Shown one piece after another: positions 6,502-54,290 of a DNA stretch of 55,770 nt. The stretch's first letter is position 1. Each line of letters begins with the position of its first letter. The DNA is from an uncultured Mediterranea sp. (lineage in GTDB: Bacteria > Bacteroidota > Bacteroidia > Bacteroidales > Bacteroidaceae). Location of the stretch: contig CAMGIP010000002.1 of NCBI GenBank assembly GCA_946056155.1, positions 1 through 55,770 of the forward strand, in the 5' to 3' direction. Under the pieces are notes generated by a model. It did not search any database. It worked only from the letters and a program-made list of their open reading frames with translations, and was not told where the DNA came from. The translations under genes were made by a program, and so were the position numbers.

Positions 6502-7716
6502 ATGAAAAGATACACTATGGATGCCATAACCCATCTCCGCTCCATCGAAGAGCTGGTGAAGATGCTCGACCGGGAGAAGCTGCTCTTCAAGGATATGTTC
6601 GAGCGCAGGAAATCGCTCTCCTACCGCATGGATTATGCCTTGGAAATCGTGGACTATAAGCATGAACGCATACAGTATCTCATCGACCACGGTGTAATCC
6701 ACGAGAATGGCGACTTCTTGGAGATGGAGGAGGTCTATGTGGAGTTCTTTGAGGATGTGCTCGACATGAACGAGGAGATCAGCGTCACCAGCGTGAAGGA
6801 GTATATCGATGCAATCAAAGAGAATATCACCTACTATCTGGAAGAAAACAACGAAACGCGCAAACAGCAGTACCAAGGCAATGTGCGCAAGATTCTCCGA
6901 AAAATAGGACTACGCACCCTCAAGAACATCATCGACCTGAAACGCAATGTAGATACGGCCTACAAGCAGGAACCCAACTACAAAATCAAGAAGGCGAGAC
7001 TGAACAACCTCGACGACAAGCGCAAGAGAATCAAGACCCTCATCGTGGAGTGCGAGAAGATGATGGAGAGAGAGATGCTGTTCTTCCGCCTCTCTGCCGA
7101 CCCCGACATGCAGCGCACTTGCCAGGATGTGCGTAACGACTTTACCGAGGCCGACCATAATCTGATAGAGATTGAACGGCAGATTATCGACTATATCAAC
7201 CAGATAGAGCAACAGAGTCTGCTACTCAAGAAAATACGCAAACTCAAATACCTCAAGGACCAGCTGACCTGGCGCGAGGAGAGCAGTGTGGCCAGAATCT
7301 TGGAAGAGAGAAATCCGCTCTGGATGGAGAAGCGGCCCTACAACCGTTTCCTCCTCTCCATCAACATGCTCAGGAGCAGTGACGAGGCGCATGAACTTAT
7401 ACGCAAGATAGCGCAGAGCAACAATATCAGACAACTGTCGCGAACCAATGCCGACCCCTTGGATGAGGCGTTTCTTTCGGAGGATGTGGTCGAGGAGCAC
7501 GGGGTCAATATCACCGAGATGTGGAACGCCTTCAAGGCGCAGGGCAGCCACCTCTTTACCTTTATCCGGAATTACCCCTATCGGGAGGCACGCACCACGG
7601 GACAGCATGTCATCCTCTACTGCCAGATGGCCACGCAGCACAGCGACGAACTGCGCTTTACCGATGAATATGAAACGTTTGACAACATAGAATATGCCTT
7701 GATATATGCGAAGTAA
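6502..7716 (+). CDS. jetA: Wadjet JetA-like (MksF/kleisin-type) protein
   Basis: First gene of a four-gene overlapping operon with JetB-, JetC- and JetD-like products; long helical segments; size and position match JetA. Confidence 0.75.
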   Translation: MKRYTMDAITHLRSIEELVKMLDREKLLFKDMFERRKSLSYRMDYALEIVDYKHERIQYLIDHGVIHENGDFLEMEEVYVEFFEDVLDMNEEISVTSVKEYIDAIKENITYYLEENNETRKQQYQGNVRKILRKIGLRTLKNIIDLKRNVDTAYKQEPNYKIKKARLNNLDDKRKRIKTLIVECEKMMEREMLFFRLSADPDMQRTCQDVRNDFTEADHNLIEIERQIIDYINQIEQQSLLLKKIRKLKYLKDQLTWREESSVARILEERNPLWMEKRPYNRFLLSINMLRSSDEAHELIRKIAQSNNIRQLSRTNADPLDEAFLSEDVVEEHGVNITEMWNAFKAQGSHLFTFIRNYPYREARTTGQHVILYCQMATQHSDELRFTDEYETFDNIEYALIYAK

Positions 7717-8260
7717 TACACAGAAAATATTTGAACGGCTGAGCCGAGGGACCTTTCTCTCGGTGGATTCCACCGACATCGAGCAGAAGCATCTCTACGA
7801 TGATGTGGAGGAAAACTATGCCGACTACGAGTCCTACTTCCGGGAACTAGGGCTGCAGTTAGAGGGGGGCGATGGCTACTTCTATTTCGCCCGCCAGCGT
7901 GAGGCCAAGCTCACCATTGAGCAGAAACTCCAGACCTTTGCCGTCTGGGTGGATATTCTCGACTTCCTCAAGACCTACGACATAGCCTTCTCCGCCGGAT
8001 TCCAGTTTCGTGTCGCCCATATCCTGGAACGCATCAACATCGATGTGGAACTGCGCGACAAGGCACGCAAGCTTTTCCGTAAGCAGAAGACCAACCAGGA
8101 GGTGATGGACAAGCTCATCGCCGAACTTACCGGTATCGGCTTTGCCGAAGTTGTCAACGAACAGGATGGCACCTACAAGGTGACCGCTGCCTTCCGCTAT
8201 GCCGAGGAGCTGGTGAATCTGATAACCCTATATAATGAAGAAGAAATGCCGGAATTATGA
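7706..8260 (+). CDS. jetB: Wadjet JetB-like (MksE/DUF4194-type) protein
   Basis: 184 aa, tandem winged-helix-like composition, overlaps flanking ORFs in jet-type order. Confidence 0.75.
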   Translation: MRSNTQKIFERLSRGTFLSVDSTDIEQKHLYDDVEENYADYESYFRELGLQLEGGDGYFYFARQREAKLTIEQKLQTFAVWVDILDFLKTYDIAFSAGFQFRVAHILERINIDVELRDKARKLFRKQKTNQEVMDKLIAELTGIGFAEVVNEQDGTYKVTAAFRYAEELVNLITLYNEEEMPEL

Positions 8261-11200
8261 GATACCTGAATAAGATAGTCTTTATCAACAGTGCCAATAT
8301 ACCCTATGCGGAGGTAATGCTAGACGGCAACGTGCATTTTTCTGGAACGCAGGGAGTGGGCAAGAGTACGGTGCTTAGGGCACTGCTCTTTTTCTACAAT
8401 GCCGACAAGATGAAGTTGGGCATACAGCCAGGACAGAAGTCGTTCGAGGAGTTCTACTTACGTTATGCCAACTCCTATATAGTGTATGAGGTGAAGACCG
8501 GTCACAGTGCCTACTCCATCCTGGTGGCACGCAGCCAGGGTAGGGCGGTCTTTTGGTTTATCGATGCCCCCTACCGCAAGGAGTGGCTCGTGGATGAGGA
8601 GGGACATGTGGATAGCGATTGGATACATATCCGCGGACGCATCGACAGCGGGGTGGAGGTAAGCCCGAAGATTGACACCTATGAGCTCTATCGAAACATC
8701 ATCTTCGGCAATACCCGCGACAGCCGTCACCGCTACGACAAGTATGCCCTTGTTGAGAGTTCCCGCTATCAGAACATCCCCCGCTCTATACAGAACGTCT
8801 TCCTCAACAGCAAGCTCGATGCCGACTTTGTGAAGAATACCATCATACAGTCGATGACCGACTCGGAGGAGTGCATCAAGCTGGCTCCCTACCGCAGCAA
8901 TGTGGATGAGTTCGAGCAGAAGTACAACGACATCGACTGCTGGTACCGCAAGGATGCCAATGGAGAGGTGGTGGTGAGAACCAAGGCTCAGAAGGTGATC
9001 GATACCTACCGCCTTCTGCTGGCCACGGAGGGGACGATGACACAAACCTGGCGCAAGCTGAACTTTGCAGTGGCTTATGCGCGAGGACAGATGCCTGTCA
9101 TTGAGGACGATATCAATAGCCTGCTGGCACAGCGGACCAAAATCAGGGAGAAGTTGGAGAGTGCGCAGGCCGAGTTCCAAAAGGAGCATGATGCGCTGAT
9201 GAAGAAAATCAGCACCTGTGATGTAAGGTTGGGGGATATACGTCAGAAGAGGAAAGAGTATGACCAGATGGATATCCGGGCGATGCTGGAGTTGGATGGT
9301 CAGGAGCCCCAATGGAAGGCGGAAAGGGCGCAGAAGGAGCAGCTGCTCGATACGCTTCAACGGCAGTTCCAGAGCGTAACCGACAAGTACAAGGCACTCT
9401 ATGAGGCATTGGACAGCGAATGGAAAGCGTTCCAGCTCGGACAGACGGAGGAGTTGCAGCGGCTGCGCAACGACATCCAGGACAGAAAGGAGAGGGCTCT
9501 GCTGCAACGTGACAAGAACCGACAGAGCATAGAGCTGGGTTACACAAAGTTCGTGGAGGAGTCGGACGGACGGTGGAAGATGTTGCAGGAGGAGCTGAAC
9601 CGGACAGACAAACGGTTAGCCGAACTGACCCATTGGCATCCCATGGCGAAGGAGATGGAGGCGTGCCGCGAGGAGATAAGGGGAATGCAGGCCCAACAGG
9701 TGGAGCTGCAGAGCCAGATAGTCATCAAAGGTAAGGACCTGGAGGCTTTGCGCAACAAGGGATTGAAGGAGCGGGAAGAGATAGAGCGGAAGTTTGCTCA
9801 GGAGATGGAATCGGTGCAGACGCAACTGGCTCAGACTGAAGATTGTCTGAAGGATACGGAGGAGATGCTGGCCCGTTGGAAGGGGTCACTCTACGAATGG
9901 CTCACCGAGAACAAACCGGGCTGGGAGGAGAATATCGGCAAGGTGGTGGACGAACGCGATGTACTCTATGCCCAGGGGTTGAATCCCCGATGCTGTGGCG
10001 AGGAGACTTCGCTCTTTGGCATCTCGCTCGACCTGGAGGCGATACCTACCCATCACCGTACTCCGGATGACTACCGCCGGGAACAGAAGGAGATGCAGAA
10101 GAGGCTGGAGGAGCTCAAACGGCAGAGAGCCGAACTGCAGACACAACGTCAACAGCAGCTGGAGAGCAGCAGCCGGTCGTACAAGAGCAAGATACGCGAC
10201 CTTGAAGTGGAGAAGAGTGCCCTGCGCATGGATTTAGACCAGATGCCGCTGAGAATCAAGGATGCCGAAACCAAATTGCGCTCGCTCTCGCAACAGGAGG
10301 AGGGGATGATTGCTGCGGAGAGGGAGAAACGGCAGGCAGCCTACAACGAGGCGTTGCTCAACCTGAACAAGGAGGATGAGAGCCGACGGCAGCGGAGAGC
10401 CAAGCGCGACAAGGAGCTGAAGGCGGCGGAGAGTGAATATCGTGCTGTCATACAGGAGCTACAGCGCCAGTTTGATGAGTTCAAGCAGACACAGGAGGCC
10501 GAGGCCGGCAAACGGAAATCGGCCATGGACGAACGGCGCCAACAGTTGCAGAAGCAGGAACGGGATGAATTGGTCGGGAAGGGAGCCGACACGCAGGCTA
10601 TCGAGCACTGCCGGAAGGAAATAGATCATGCACAGAAGCTGCTCAACCGTATCGAGGAGCAGAAGAGGCATGTGTATGCCTACCGCAAGGATGAGGAGGA
10701 ACTCTTCTCGCACGAGAGTGAATATCGGGAGGAGAAGCGCCGGTTGGAGGAGATGGACAGTCAGGCCTGCCAGCGCAAAGAGGACCGCTGCAAACGGTAT
10801 GAGGGTGAGCTGGGCGAAACTTCGTCCCTGCTGAAGAGGAAACAGGAAGAGCAGGAGAAGATGAAGGAGGGGCTGACCCAATACGAGCAGCTCTGCCGGG
10901 TGGAGAACACCATTCCAGAATCTTTCCTTCAGGATGATACCCAGCAGACCACCTTGCAGGGTTGTGGAGAGCTGGTAAATGAGATGCGTGGGATCATCAA
11001 CCGGAAACGGCTGAAGCAGGAGGAACTCAAACGGGCTACCAACTCGTTCAACTCCCATTTCGGTGCCAACAACACCTTCCATTTCACCACTCCCCAGTAT
11101 GATGAGGAGTATCGTGACTTTGCACAACACCTGCTTGACTTCATTGAGGATGACCGCATCGAGGAGTATCGCAAGCGGGTGAGCGAGCATTACCACACCA

Positions 11201-11916
11201 TTCTCAACAGCATATCAAGAGAGGTGGGACAGCTGATGAACCACTCGGCGGAAATCAAGGCCGTCATCAATGAGGTGAACCGCGACTTCAAGGAGCGGAA
11301 CTTTGCCGGAGTCATACGCAGCATCGAACTGCGAGCCGAGGAGTCGTCAGACCGGCTGGTCCTCCTCCTCCGTAACATACGCGACTTTACCGAGGAGAAT
11401 ATGATGAACATCGGTGAGGTGAACCTCTTCTCGGATGCCGATCACGGCAAGGTGAACGACAAGGTGGTGGAGTATCTCAAGCATTTCATGAAGCAGCTGC
11501 AGAAGGAGCCCGGACGCACCGAACTCACCCTCTCCGACACCTTCCGCCTGCAGTTCCGCATCCAGGAGAACGACAACAATACGGGATGGGTGGAGCGTAT
11601 CAGCAATGTGGGTTCCGACGGTACCGACATCTTAGTCAAGGCGATGGTCAACATCATGCTCATCAACGTCTTCAAGACCAAGGCTTCTCGCAAGAACGGT
11701 GACTTCATCATCCATTGCATGATGGATGAGATTGGCAAGCTCCATCCGAGTAACGTGAGCGGCATCCTGCAGTTTGCCAATGTGCGCAACATCTACCTCA
11801 TCAATAGCTCACCCATGGGCTACAATGCGGACATCTACCGGTATAACTATCTGCTGACCAAGGACAGCAAGTCACAGACACACGTGAGGCGTTTGGTGAC
11901 TATCAACCGGAACTGA
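8257..11916 (+). CDS. jetC: Wadjet JetC SMC-like ATPase (MksB-type)
   Basis: HFSGTQGVGKSTVLRALLFFYNADK Walker A, long coiled coil, hinge around NPRCCGEETSLFGISLDL, C-terminal NVGSDGTDILVKAMVNIMLI signature and IIHCMMDEIGKLHP Walker B. Confidence 0.9.
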   Translation: MRYLNKIVFINSANIPYAEVMLDGNVHFSGTQGVGKSTVLRALLFFYNADKMKLGIQPGQKSFEEFYLRYANSYIVYEVKTGHSAYSILVARSQGRAVFWFIDAPYRKEWLVDEEGHVDSDWIHIRGRIDSGVEVSPKIDTYELYRNIIFGNTRDSRHRYDKYALVESSRYQNIPRSIQNVFLNSKLDADFVKNTIIQSMTDSEECIKLAPYRSNVDEFEQKYNDIDCWYRKDANGEVVVRTKAQKVIDTYRLLLATEGTMTQTWRKLNFAVAYARGQMPVIEDDINSLLAQRTKIREKLESAQAEFQKEHDALMKKISTCDVRLGDIRQKRKEYDQMDIRAMLELDGQEPQWKAERAQKEQLLDTLQRQFQSVTDKYKALYEALDSEWKAFQLGQTEELQRLRNDIQDRKERALLQRDKNRQSIELGYTKFVEESDGRWKMLQEELNRTDKRLAELTHWHPMAKEMEACREEIRGMQAQQVELQSQIVIKGKDLEALRNKGLKEREEIERKFAQEMESVQTQLAQTEDCLKDTEEMLARWKGSLYEWLTENKPGWEENIGKVVDERDVLYAQGLNPRCCGEETSLFGISLDLEAIPTHHRTPDDYRREQKEMQKRLEELKRQRAELQTQRQQQLESSSRSYKSKIRDLEVEKSALRMDLDQMPLRIKDAETKLRSLSQQEEGMIAAEREKRQAAYNEALLNLNKEDESRRQRRAKRDKELKAAESEYRAVIQELQRQFDEFKQTQEAEAGKRKSAMDERRQQLQKQERDELVGKGADTQAIEHCRKEIDHAQKLLNRIEEQKRHVYAYRKDEEELFSHESEYREEKRRLEEMDSQACQRKEDRCKRYEGELGETSSLLKRKQEEQEKMKEGLTQYEQLCRVENTIPESFLQDDTQQTTLQGCGELVNEMRGIINRKRLKQEELKRATNSFNSHFGANNTFHFTTPQYDEEYRDFAQHLLDFIEDDRIEEYRKRVSEHYHTILNSISREVGQLMNHSAEIKAVINEVNRDFKERNFAGVIRSIELRAEESSDRLVLLLRNIRDFTEENMMNIGEVNLFSDADHGKVNDKVVEYLKHFMKQLQKEPGRTELTLSDTFRLQFRIQENDNNTGWVERISNVGSDGTDILVKAMVNIMLINVFKTKASRKNGDFIIHCMMDEIGKLHPSNVSGILQFANVRNIYLINSSPMGYNADIYRYNYLLTKDSKSQTHVRRLVTINRN

Positions 11917-12974
11917 TGGCACTCTCTGCTACGCAGATAAGCCACCTCCAGCGACTCCTTATGGGCGAATCGGTGGCAGCCAGCCTGATGTTGAAGGGTG
12001 TGGCCGAAGAGTTGTGCAAGGAGGAACTGCTCACAGTGCGCACCCGGGGGTGCCGACGTAGCTATTCGGCAGTCAATGTGACGGCTTTACGCAACTATCT
12101 CTATACTCGCTACCCGGAGTTGCGTATGGCCGATGAGGCTTCCAGAGCTGCTGAGCCGGAGGGCAGGTCTCTTCCGCACAGGGTTTTAAATCCGGGAATG
12201 ACCCCAAATCCTGCAATAACCTCAGATCTGGTGATGAACTCAAATAATGGGTCCAACCAAGAGGTAGTCCCAAACGGGGAGATGGCATTTCATGAGGAGA
12301 GTGTCTCAGATTCGGGGATGACGTCTGATTGGAAGTTGAATCCGAAAGCAGAGCAGAGTCAGGATATTACCCGCGCCCGTCAGGCAGCTGCCACGGGTGA
12401 TTCCAAAATCTATGCCAAGCGTTCTTGTCCTGGTTTTCCGGTCAACAGCTATCAGCCTATCGCTTGTCGTCTGCATGGGGAGGAGCTGGTGGTTTATCCG
12501 CAGGAGGGCACCTTTCTCTTCATCGCTGATTGGTCCTCCTTCTGCATTCCAGCCGAAGTCATTGTGGTGGGCATAGAGAATATGGAGAGCTTCAGGATGG
12601 TGCGTGCGGAGCAGCGGCTCTTTGAGTCGATTCTTGGTCAGTCCCCCTTGCTTTTTGTCTCCCGTTACCCCCAATCCACCGATCTCCGTTTTTGGTTGCA
12701 GGGTATCAGCAATCGCTATGTCCATTTCGGGGACTTTGATCTGGCTGGTATCCATATATTTCTCACGGAGTTCTATCCCTACCTCGGTGAGCGAAGCTCA
12801 TTCCTCATTCCGCATGACTTGGAGCAACGTCTGCAACAGGGCTCCTTGGAGCGGTACAACGACCAATACCAACGGTTCTCGTCGCTGAGATCTGACCATC
12901 CCGAATTCCAACGGCTTATTGAACTTATCCATCGCTACCGGAGGGGTTACGACCAGGAGGGCTACATCGGCTGA
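11916..12974 (+). CDS. jetD: Wadjet JetD-like Toprim (TopoVI/Spo11-type) protein
   Basis: IVVGIENMESF and VHFGDFDLAGIHI Toprim acidic motifs; TGATG overlap with jetC. Confidence 0.85.
   Translation: MALSATQISHLQRLLMGESVAASLMLKGVAEELCKEELLTVRTRGCRRSYSAVNVTALRNYLYTRYPELRMADEASRAAEPEGRSLPHRVLNPGMTPNPAITSDLVMNSNNGSNQEVVPNGEMAFHEESVSDSGMTSDWKLNPKAEQSQDITRARQAAATGDSKIYAKRSCPGFPVNSYQPIACRLHGEELVVYPQEGTFLFIADWSSFCIPAEVIVVGIENMESFRMVRAEQRLFESILGQSPLLFVSRYPQSTDLRFWLQGISNRYVHFGDFDLAGIHIFLTEFYPYLGERSSFLIPHDLEQRLQQGSLERYNDQYQRFSSLRSDHPEFQRLIELIHRYRRGYDQEGYIG
12189..12350 (+). repeat. Degenerate 18-bp tandem repeat inside jetD linker
   Basis: AATCCGGGAATGACCCCA / AATCCTGCAATAACCTCA / GATCTGGTGATGAACTCA / ... 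in frame, peptide period 6 aa. Confidence 0.6.
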
Positions 12975-13040: not shown

Positions 13041-13150
13041 AATTTCCTCAGTTGAGTTGCTGAATTTCTCCAGTTAGGGCGGAAAATTTCTCTAGTTAGG
13101 AAAAAAAATCTCGCTAACTAGGAAAAAATATTTTCCTAACTGGGATTTTT
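13041..13150. repeat. 22-bp tandem repeat array (family A), locus 1, 5 units
   Basis: Five 22-bp units with CAGTTGAG/CCAGTTAGG/CTAGTTAGG/CTAACTAGG/CTAACTGGG cores. Confidence 0.85.
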
Positions 13151-13220: not shown

Positions 13221-14558
13221 ATGAAGTACCAACTGGCTATTATTGGTGGTGGACCTGCTGGGTACACCGCAGCTGAGACTGCCGGCAAGGCCGGCCTTAA
13301 GGTGGTGTTGTTCGAGAAGAGAAGCTTGGGTGGCGTCTGCCTCAACGAGGGATGTATTCCCACCAAGACTCTCCTTTACTCTGCCAAAACGTATGACGGT
13401 GCACGTCATGCACAGAAATATGCGGTCACGGTGCCCGAGGTGTCGTTTGACCTGCCCAAGATTATTGCCCGCAAACAGAAGGTGGTGCGTAAGCTGGTGC
13501 TTGGCATCAAGGGGAAATTGACCCAGGCAGGAGTGGAGCTGGTGCAGGGCGAGGCACAGCTTTTAGACGCTCACCACGTGCAGTGCGGCGAGACGGTCTA
13601 TGAATGCGACAACCTGCTGCTCTGTACCGGATCGGAGACCTTCATTCCACCCATTCCGGGACTGGAGAGCGTGCCCTATTGGACCCATCGCGATGCGTTG
13701 GACAGTAAGGTGCTGCCCAAGAGTTTAGTCATCGTGGGAGGTGGTGTCATCGGCATGGAGTTTGCCTCCTTCTTCAACAGCCTGGGAGTGGCGGTGACGG
13801 TTATCGAGATGCTTCCCGAGATTCTCGGTGGAGGCATGGATGTGGAGATGGCCGGTCTGCTGCGTGCCGAATATGCCAAGCGGGGCATACGCTTCATGCT
13901 CAGCACGAAGGTGACTGCGGTAGAGGCGGGCATTAAGGTGCACTACGAAGATGCCAACGGTGCAGGTTCGGTAGAGGCGGAGAAGCTGCTCATGAGTGTA
14001 GGCCGACGCCCAGTGATGAAGGGTTTTGGCCTAGAGAACCTGCCGCTGGAACGGAATGCACGCGGTGGCATCGTGGTGGATGAGCAGATGCGTACCTCAC
14101 TGCCCGGTGTCTATGTCTGTGGCGACCTCACCGGCTTCTCGCTGCTGGCCCATACGGCTGTGCGCGAAGGAGAAGTGGCCGTACATACCATCCTTGGCAA
14201 GGAGGATGCCATGAGCTATCGTGCCATTCCCGGCGTGGTCTATACCAATCCTGAGATTGCCGGCGTGGGAGAGACGGAAGAGTCGCTCCGCAAGAAGGAG
14301 ATTGCCCATCGGGTAGTCAAGCTGCCCATGGCCTACAGCGGACGCTTCGTGGCGGAGAACGAAGGGGTCAATGGGGTGTGCAAACTGCTGATTGCAGAGG
14401 ATGATACGCTACTCGGTGCACATCTCTTCGGCAACCCTGCTTCGGAAATCATTGCCCTGGCAGGTATGGCCATTGAACTGAAGCTCACCACCGAGCAGTG
14501 GAAACGGATGGTCATTCCTCACCCTACCGTGGGTGAAATCTTCCGCGAGGCACTGTGA
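13221..14558 (+). CDS. lpdA: Dihydrolipoyl dehydrogenase
   Basis: GGGPAGYTAAETAGKAGLKV, GGVCLNEGCIPTKTLL redox motif, C-terminal HPTVGEIFREAL. Confidence 0.93.
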   Translation: MKYQLAIIGGGPAGYTAAETAGKAGLKVVLFEKRSLGGVCLNEGCIPTKTLLYSAKTYDGARHAQKYAVTVPEVSFDLPKIIARKQKVVRKLVLGIKGKLTQAGVELVQGEAQLLDAHHVQCGETVYECDNLLLCTGSETFIPPIPGLESVPYWTHRDALDSKVLPKSLVIVGGGVIGMEFASFFNSLGVAVTVIEMLPEILGGGMDVEMAGLLRAEYAKRGIRFMLSTKVTAVEAGIKVHYEDANGAGSVEAEKLLMSVGRRPVMKGFGLENLPLERNARGGIVVDEQMRTSLPGVYVCGDLTGFSLLAHTAVREGEVAVHTILGKEDAMSYRAIPGVVYTNPEIAGVGETEESLRKKEIAHRVVKLPMAYSGRFVAENEGVNGVCKLLIAEDDTLLGAHLFGNPASEIIALAGMAIELKLTTEQWKRMVIPHPTVGEIFREAL

Positions 14559-52217: not shown

Positions 52218-53066
52218 ATGAACCATAACATAAAGCGAGGAGGTCCAGGAGCCGTTGTTATGCTCCTGTTGCTTTGCCTTGGACTAATACCCATGGGACT
52301 GAAGGCACAATGCAAGGCCCATAATGAAGCCTTTAAGAGCGGTGAACGGGTGGAATATGACCTCTACTTCAACTGGAAATTTATTTGGAAGAAAGTGGGC
52401 AAGGCTACCCTCACTACCGATGCGGTGACCTATCAGGATCAACCGGCCTATCGCTATAGCTTGACCAGCGTCAGCAGCAAACAATGTGACTTCTTCTTCA
52501 AGATGCGTGATACGCTGACCTGCTACACCACTGAGTGGCTCGAACCGCTCTACTTCATCAAGGCGGCCGAGGAGGGGAAACGCCATACCGTGGATGAGGC
52601 TTGGTTCAGCTACAGCGAGGGTAAATCCATTGTGAAGCAGCGCCGTACCTGGCGCAATCCGGTACGTGATACGCAGGAGATGGAGTACAGCGATTCGCAA
52701 TGTATCTTTGATATGCTGAGCATTCTGGCTCAGGCCCGTTCCTATCGTGCGGAAGACTATAAGGTGGGTGACAAAATTCATTTTCCCATGGCCACCGGAC
52801 GCAAGGTGGAGCAGCAGACCCTGATTTATCGCGGGAAGAAGAGAGTGGAGGCCAACAACGACACCACCTACCGCTGCTTGGTTTTCTCCTTTGTGGAGTA
52901 TGACAAGAAGAACAAGGAGAAGGAGGTCATTACCTTCTTCGTCAGCGACGATCGCAACCACTTACCCATCCGTCTGGATCTCTATCTCAACTTTGGTTGT
53001 GCCAAGGCCTATTTCAAGCGGGTCAAGGGCAATCGCTATCCACTCACCTCTGTCGTGGATGACTGA
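52218..53066 (+). CDS. DUF3108 domain protein
   Basis: FKSGERVEYDLYFNWKFIWKKVGKATL; signal peptide. Confidence 0.85.
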   Translation: MNHNIKRGGPGAVVMLLLLCLGLIPMGLKAQCKAHNEAFKSGERVEYDLYFNWKFIWKKVGKATLTTDAVTYQDQPAYRYSLTSVSSKQCDFFFKMRDTLTCYTTEWLEPLYFIKAAEEGKRHTVDEAWFSYSEGKSIVKQRRTWRNPVRDTQEMEYSDSQCIFDMLSILAQARSYRAEDYKVGDKIHFPMATGRKVEQQTLIYRGKKRVEANNDTTYRCLVFSFVEYDKKNKEKEVITFFVSDDRNHLPIRLDLYLNFGCAKAYFKRVKGNRYPLTSVVDD

Positions 53067-53131
53067 CAGGTTCGTCACTTGCCGATTTCTCCCTCCGTGG
53101 TCTCTCTGAAAATTGGCTGAAATGATTTCCA

Positions 53132-53241
53132 AATTTCCTAGTTAGGGAAATTTTTTTCCTAACTAGCGCGTAAAATCTCTCTAACTAGGAAAATGTATGT
53201 ACTCTATCTGGGGAATTTTCACAACCCAACTGAGGCGTTTC
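53132..53241. repeat. 22-bp tandem repeat array (family A), locus 2, 5 units
   Basis: AATTTCCTAGTTAGGGAAATTT / TTTTCCTAACTAGCGCGTAAAA / TCTCTCTAACTAGGAAAATGTA / TGTACTCTATCTGGGGAATTTT / CACAACCCAACTGAGGCGTTTC. Confidence 0.82.
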
Positions 53242-53378
53242 AAGAGGAAAACAGCTGGTCTGTTCACTCCGTAGTTAAACCCAAACCGATCATTGGTCTG
53301 TCATGTGCAGGCAATCTCTCTTTATCTCCTCTGTTTTCCCGTTTTTCGGTTGCCGTGGAATCCCACCAGCGCTCTCAA

Positions 53379-53436
53379 GACGAAAAAATATCTGCACAGA
53401 AATAGAAGTTATGATCATCATAACGCTAATGACCTC
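53379..53436 (+). repeat. Dispersed repeat family C, copy 2
   Basis: GACGAAAAAATATCTGCACAGAAATAGAAGTTATGATCATCATAACGCTAATGACCTC; contains perfect GTTATGAT-C-ATCATAAC palindrome. Confidence 0.8.
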
Positions 53437-53461
53437 TTTATTTTGTCCTTTTGGGCAAAAA

Positions 53462-53500
53462 GAAATTCCCCTCCCGGATGGCTCCGAGCAGGGGAATTTC
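53462..53500 (-). terminator. Terminator of sdh/frd operon
   Basis: GAAATTCCCC/GGGGAATTTC 10-bp stem followed on minus strand by TTTTTG. Confidence 0.85.
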
Positions 53501-53534: not shown

Positions 53535-54290
53535 TTAGTCCTTCAGCTTAGCCTTGATGAAGTCACGGTTCAAGCGTGCAATGTTGCTGATGGATACGTT
53601 CTTAGGACATTCGGCCTCGCAGGCGCGAGTATTGGTGCAGTTACCGAAGCCCAGTTCATCCATCTTGCTCAGCATAGCCTTGGCGCGGCGAAGAGCCTCG
53701 GGCTTACCCTGCGGCAGCAGGTTGAGCTGGCTCACCTTAGCTGAAACGAACAGCATTGCAGAACCGTTCTTACATGCAGCTACGCAGGCACCGCAACCGA
53801 TACAGCTAGCGGCATCCATAGCCTCGTCGGCAATGGGTTTGGGAATCAGGATAGCGTTTGCATCCTGCGGAGCGCCTGTGCGGACATCAACATAACCACC
53901 AGCCTGCATAATCTTGTCGTAAGCGGTACGGTCCACCATCAAGTCCTTGATGACAGGGAAACCGGCCGAACGCCAAGGCTCAACCGTGATGGTGTCACCA
54001 TCCTTGAAGCGGCGCATATAGATCTGGCAGGTTGTAGCACCCGTTGCGGGGCCGTGGGGGTGACCATTGATATAGAGAGAGCACATACCGCAGATACCTT
54101 CGCGGCAGTCGTGGTCAAATACCACGGGCTCCTTGCCTGAGCTGATGAGCTGCTCGTTCAAGATGTCCAGCATTTCCAGGAATGAGGTATCACCGGGGAT
54201 ATCCTTCATTTGGTAGGTTTCAAAAGCGCCTTTCGCCTTAGGACCGGCCTGACGCCACACTTTCAGTGTGAAAGATATATTTTTGTCCAT
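53535..54290 (-). CDS. sdhB: Succinate dehydrogenase/fumarate reductase iron-sulfur subunit
   Basis: [52 protein letters not shown]. Confidence 0.96.

Follow-up and report, generated by a model that had tools for sequence, protein, structure and literature searches.

The two intergenic tandem arrays W1 and W2, found in a window of 55,770 nucleotides from an uncultured Mediterranea sp., are certainly members of a dispersed, non-coding intergenic repeat family, here termed family A. The family is characterised by units of fixed polarity and near-fixed spacing, lies between genes and is absent from the closest relatives of its host genome; at the W2 locus, three relatives lack the extra DNA that surrounds the array. 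From these properties we infer a REP/MITE-like mechanism with a putative DNA-binding protein. It is tentatively proposed, with a chance somewhat below even, that W1 and W2 represent two copies of one lineage-specific, non-autonomous repeat of this kind, whose phased, fixed-polarity units are read by a putative transposase-like protein acting in trans.

Both arrays lie where an earlier note on this DNA had placed them, at 13041-13150 and 53132-53241. Units are designated GT type (AGTTAG) or AC type (CTAACT), and the arrays are organised with their neighbouring genes as follows; the E values are those of R1, a sequence-only profile built from 15 aligned arrays and run beside BLAST with W1 as query.

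11916..12974, plus strand: JetD-like gene (DUF7281), left neighbour of W1
13041..13150, minus strand: array W1, consisting of five units spaced 22 bp apart; R1 E 5.1e-24 on the minus strand
13041..13062, plus strand: W1 unit 1, degenerate GT type, CTCAGTTGAG
13063..13084, plus strand: W1 unit 2, GT type, CCAGTTAG
13085..13106, plus strand: W1 unit 3, GT type, CTAGTTAG, with the top PWM score in W1, 29.5 bits
13107..13128, minus strand: W1 unit 4, AC type, CTAACTAG
13129..13150, minus strand: W1 unit 5, AC type, CTAACTGG
13221..14558, plus strand: lpdA-like pyridine nucleotide-disulphide oxidoreductase gene, right neighbour of W1
52218..53066, plus strand: DUF3108 gene, left neighbour of W2
53110..53268, plus strand: W2 with the flanks common to its subfamily, about 26 bp on the left and about 28 bp on the right
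53132..53241, plus strand: array W2, unit order GT AC AC AC AC, spacings 21/22/23/22; R1 E 1.2e-26
53535..54290, minus strand: sdhB-like iron-sulphur protein gene, right neighbour of W2

The division into five 22-bp units that had been described for each locus is exact at W1, where every step is 22 bp and TRF reports a 22-bp period at 13063-13145, and approximate at W2, where only two of the four steps have this length. W1 reads GT GT GT AC AC on the plus strand and GT GT AC AC AC on the minus strand, which is the reference orientation of the family, and is thus oriented opposite to W2. Not every unit carries the 8-bp core CTAGTTAG or its reverse complement CTAACTAG as had been claimed: the core is exact in two of the five units of W1 and three of the five of W2, and the remaining cores are the variants CCAGTTAG, CTAACTGG, CTATCTGG, CTCAGTTGAG or CCAACTGAG. 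The exact 8-mer occurs five times in the window, each time within W1 or W2, as against a mean of 0.91 in dinucleotide shuffles of the window, none of which (0/100) reached five. Just upstream of W1, an operon at 6502-12974 encodes a SMC-like DUF3584 protein and the DUF7281 (JetD-like) protein; it resembles the Wadjet (JetABCD) defence system and gave no match to the PADLOC models.

Searches of the Mediterranea genome, a draft of 2.64 Mb in 207 contigs that is 81% complete, with BLAST and R1 recovered 15 full arrays on 14 contigs (E 5e-29 to about 1e-10), the weakest being the copy on contig C12, which R1 recovers in pieces. The suspicion that W1 and W2 belong to a dispersed repeat family was thereby borne out, as further copies exist both in this genome and in Bacteroides ndongoniae (G089) of the same genus, where about 71 arrays, mostly of three units, were counted as distinct places. 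All 15 arrays of the Mediterranea genome are intergenic. The extent of DNA common between copies varies from 160-220 bp for some to the array alone for others, and nine of the 15 form a subfamily that also has common flanking DNA, up to 220 bp in total. Isolated units are almost absent, every match of at least 12 bits in 400 kb of this genome lying within an array.

Two rules describe the arrays, which comprise three to five units per copy, with the numbers of GT and AC units (n and m) differing between copies. The unit consensus in the GT orientation, TTTTTTCCCAGTTAGGAAAAAA, holds 30 bits of information and its AGTTAG is nearly invariant. The first rule concerns spacing: in B. ndongoniae 85 of 88 steps measure 22 bp, although the linkers differ by 31% on average and 55 distinct ones are found among 85, and in the Mediterranea genome 41 of 50 steps have this length and eight measure 23 bp, mostly the step between units 3 and 4 of the subfamily. 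The combination of variable, A/T-rich linkers with near-fixed steps points to the double helix. The second rule is that AGTTAG units stand on the left and CTAACT units on the right (GTn ACm), a pattern that is the same on both strands, since reverse-complementing an array restores this order. It is obeyed by 34 of 39 arrays in B. ndongoniae (9.1 expected by chance) and 13 of 15 in the Mediterranea genome (2.5 expected), and none of 20000 shuffles reached the observed count for either genome. The two exceptions in the latter, on C159 and C38, each show by eye a weaker fifth unit of the expected orientation, with which the count would be 15 of 15. The flipping of unit orientation seen earlier is thus real in that both orientations occur, but it is not free. 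The suggestion that the arrays bind a protein is made plausible by the fixed spacing despite variable linkers, the directional unit and the lack of compensatory pairing within arrays.

Comparison with related genomes indicates that the W2 array is lineage-specific. Three relatives, G153, G154 and G155, have kept the convergent DUF3108/sdhB pair and show no match to an array unit at this locus, which in the Mediterranea genome contains two further features:

53067..53456, no strand assigned: stretch around W2 without counterpart in the relatives, about 390 bp as against 67, 71 and 196 bp in G153, G154 and G155
53462..53500, no strand assigned: conserved hairpin of terminator-like appearance, flanked by A/T and lying between DUF3108 and sdhB; it is visible in the alignment with the relatives and was not listed by the terminator scan

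Between the aligned DUF3108 and sdhB blocks 390-418 bp remain unaligned in the Mediterranea genome, and the relatives have about 195-350 bp less DNA, their flanks being too diverged for an exact empty-site boundary. The hairpin next to sdhB (AAATTCCCC...GGGGAATTT in the Mediterranea genome and AAACTCCCC...GGGGAGTTT in G154) lies apart from the array and occurs in all four genomes, and since the relatives keep it without the array, W2 is not the conserved element of the region. A gain of W2 in the Mediterranea lineage and a loss in the three relatives are both possible; gain requires fewer events if G153, G154 and G155 do not form a clade of their own. At the W1 locus the relatives have neither the array nor the JetD-like gene upstream of lpdA, and the comparison carries no information on W1. 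For two further arrays, those of contigs C1 and C14, no relative with synteny on both sides emerged from empty-site searches.

The presence of family A per genome is nearly all-or-none. Strong matches are confined to 15 genomes, the Mediterranea genome included, out of 160 in the genus. Among the ten near relatives, as judged by lpdA identity, about 18 arrays occur in G167 and none in the other nine, which include the three closest. These zero counts are meaningful because in the array-free G183 the unit matrix gives a single match of at least 12 bits in 400 kb. Related arrays were also returned by a pattern scan of named genomes from rumen and gut Prevotella and Bacteroides assemblies. The same scan returned arrays from Treponema, Kiritimatiellae, Shewanella and others, which differ in unit sequence and were left out of the family, their 22-bp step being imposed by the search pattern; those from Treponema and Kiritimatiellae at L094, L109, L112, L131 and L149, which belong to other phyla and come mostly from herbivore guts, carry CTAGCTAG or CTAATTAG cores at a step likewise imposed. 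A weak match (L068 in G007, E 1.1e-4) places the unit-like segments CCCCAATTAG and CTCCAATTGG within an ORF resembling a cation-transport ATPase and may be due to chance. In B. ndongoniae some arrays (L314, L321, L322, L330) are embedded in a larger dispersed repeat that extends over several hundred bp, and in other genomes of the genus (L065, L074, L240) family A arrays occur near other repeats with palindromic units, such as ACGAGAACCGTTCTCGCAAGGC and GGTTTACTACTAGTAAGCTATA.

The REP/MITE-like reading is favoured because copy numbers reach 15 and about 71, presence is near all-or-none, W2 is absent in relatives, and a 30-bit unit with few isolated occurrences keeps its polarity and its 22-bp steps despite variable linkers. 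The units stand 22 bp, or two helical turns, apart, and the two ends of the array face each other. It is envisaged that the phased units are occupied one next to another, starting from both ends, by a putative sequence-specific transposase-like protein whose gene lies elsewhere, and that the bound protein pairs the array ends so that copies may be spread or maintained; the arrays would then be REP/MITE-like passengers and not conserved regulatory sites. Several results count against this reading. The searches yielded neither an autonomous partner nor a candidate protein. The numbers n and m vary, the extent of common flanks is unequal, and there are neither sharp element ends, though the outermost units repeat one another in inverted orientation, nor target-site duplications, direct repeats between the flanks being no longer than in shuffles with the sole excess in A/T runs. 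Among 23 three-unit arrays of B. ndongoniae there is no near-identical pair (the best is 92% over 62 bp) and therefore no sign of recent transposition. A long transposon bounded by two arrays is rejected, as no partner array lies within 10-20 kb of the four arrays examined, among them the three that violate the polarity rule or come close to doing so; no transposase genes occur between arrays and no terminal dinucleotide was identified.

The directional 30-bit unit, its near-fixed helical spacing and the variable linkers would also suit architectural or roadblock sites, at which 66-110 bp would be coated by a protein that binds DNA cooperatively and affects transcription or chromosome structure, chiefly between convergent genes. 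The strand-symmetric polarity would let a polymerase meet the same unit first from either side, and of the 30 B. ndongoniae arrays that could be classified, 13 stand between convergent ORFs and four between divergent ORFs, as against 26 and 36 of 140 background gaps (at least 100 bp, in 400 kb). This enrichment is suggestive only, since the ORF calls are crude and mechanical and only five of the arrays fall within the background 400 kb. Such sites are nonetheless somewhat unlikely to be the explanation: the arrays are missing from the closest relatives and from the W2 locus in relatives, copies have common flanking DNA that binding sites alone would not be expected to have, and chromosomal positions look random. 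On three B. ndongoniae contigs the gap statistics match uniform placement. Ori/ter or domain spacing was rejected on this ground, and together with the lack of the family in the closest relatives the result gives no support to the partition-like role that had been suggested or to an ori/ter role.

It is rather unlikely that the arrays act at the RNA level, with hairpins in 3' untranslated regions serving to stabilise mRNA or terminate transcription, a role proposed for enterobacterial REPs. They are often near stop codons and convergent, and as single strands they fold far more strongly than shuffles (z -3.8 for W1, -4.0 for W2 and -6.4 to -7.9 for five B. ndongoniae arrays), but strong folding follows from units in opposed orientation, and a hairpin would not need fixed 22-bp steps. 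Partner units within an array are no more complementary than units from different or swapped arrays, which speaks against RNA pairing as the conserved feature, with one of eight tests in the Mediterranea genome weakly positive (p 0.046); the comparison lowers this reading, at low power where units are nearly invariant. An intrinsic terminator was rejected, as there is no T-run after a stem and no terminator-like site at W1 or inside the W2 array; the one site listed near W2, at 53296-53312, is outside it, and the region is served in all four genomes by the separate conserved hairpin. Nor was there any match to a known structured RNA in Rfam 15 at the gathering score. That the arrays are passive minisatellites, their 22/23-bp units made and copied by slippage of the replication machinery at short palindromes without a dedicated factor, is highly doubtful. 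The same genomes do hold several other 22/23-bp tandem families of unrelated sequence, and in three genomes of the genus no intergenic tandem period of at least 15 bp is commoner than 22 bp, yet slippage predicts neither the left-right polarity, nor dispersal to 15-71 loci, nor the near-absence of indels in A/T-rich linkers.

Judged by its description, the nearest known element of a similar kind is the BrickBuilt minisatellite/MITE of Porphyromonas gingivalis, with intergenic tandem units in about 19 dispersed copies per genome (PMC4596501). Like family A it belongs to the Bacteroidales and combines intergenic 22/23-nt tandem units with longer common flanks on some copies, but its units are 23-nt direct repeats, it has a leader and a tail with IS5-type terminal inverted repeats, and no polarity rule is described (PMC4596501). 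Its terminal repeat GAGACCTTTGCA has no match with fewer than two mismatches in the window and a single match with two mismatches, at 7931, against 5.9 expected by chance; none is near the arrays. REP and BIME elements, including GTAG/CGTC-tagged REPs (PMC3733652), are similarly short, extragenic, palindrome-like and present in many copies, often beside gene 3' ends with units in opposed orientation. Family A differs in that its units are locked at 22 bp in arrays of three to five and in that its consensus has no GTAG or CGTC tag at the unit end. A REP system driven by a RAYT (Y1 transposase, PF01797) was rejected on account of the absence of PF01797 matches from the 81%-complete Mediterranea genome (G000) and from the array-rich G111, G023, G016 and G029; some matches occur in G089 (B. 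ndongoniae) and G139. The ends of the transposon Tn7 are built from several 22-bp sites for its transposase TnsB. They resemble family A in their directional sites of about 22 bp placed side by side and in the inversion of the two ends, whereas in family A no transposase genes lie between arrays and no terminal dinucleotide or target-site duplication was identified. A CRISPR array was rejected on account of the imperfect repeats, the A/T-rich linkers of 12-14 bp and the neighbouring genes, DUF7281/lpdA and DUF3108/sdhB. No paper describing the unit sequence was found, a search with that sequence giving only papers outside bacteriology.

Short dispersed repeats are well known from enterobacteria and Pseudomonas, in which RAYTs account for them, and little is described in Bacteroidales beyond P. 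gingivalis. Family A offers two strict, testable rules, 22-bp steps and converging units, and its abundance in the cultured B. ndongoniae means that a putative reader protein can be sought. Samples of 400-480 kb from three genomes of the genus contained 6, 16 and 6 intergenic tandem arrays of 22-bp units and four each of 23-bp units, compared with one or none at 22 bp in smaller samples of two genomes from other families. Many have unrelated units, often a short palindrome such as TAAACTGATAGTTTACCCGTAT or TTCAGTCGGCGACTGAAACCAT, and their occurrence in the same genomes raises the question of a shared cause. BrickBuilt (23 nt) and the 22- and 23-nt repeats of P. gingivalis strain W83, cited in PMC4596501, would fit this pattern. 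Bacteroides-type genomes might carry a class of intergenic arrays with a common 22/23-bp step and unrelated units, produced and maintained by one shared machinery that fixes the step whatever the unit sequence, family A with its inward polarity being the clearest member, but this is distinctly unlikely. A second dispersed family of 23-bp arrays with the palindromic core TAAGATTATTAATCTTA occurs in the Mediterranea genome (L368:8812-8870, L370:903-978, L373:7458-7521); it is unrelated in sequence to family A and absent from the window. In one intergenic region of B. ndongoniae (L388:13855-14133) three different 22-bp arrays adjoin, the first of which belongs to family A.
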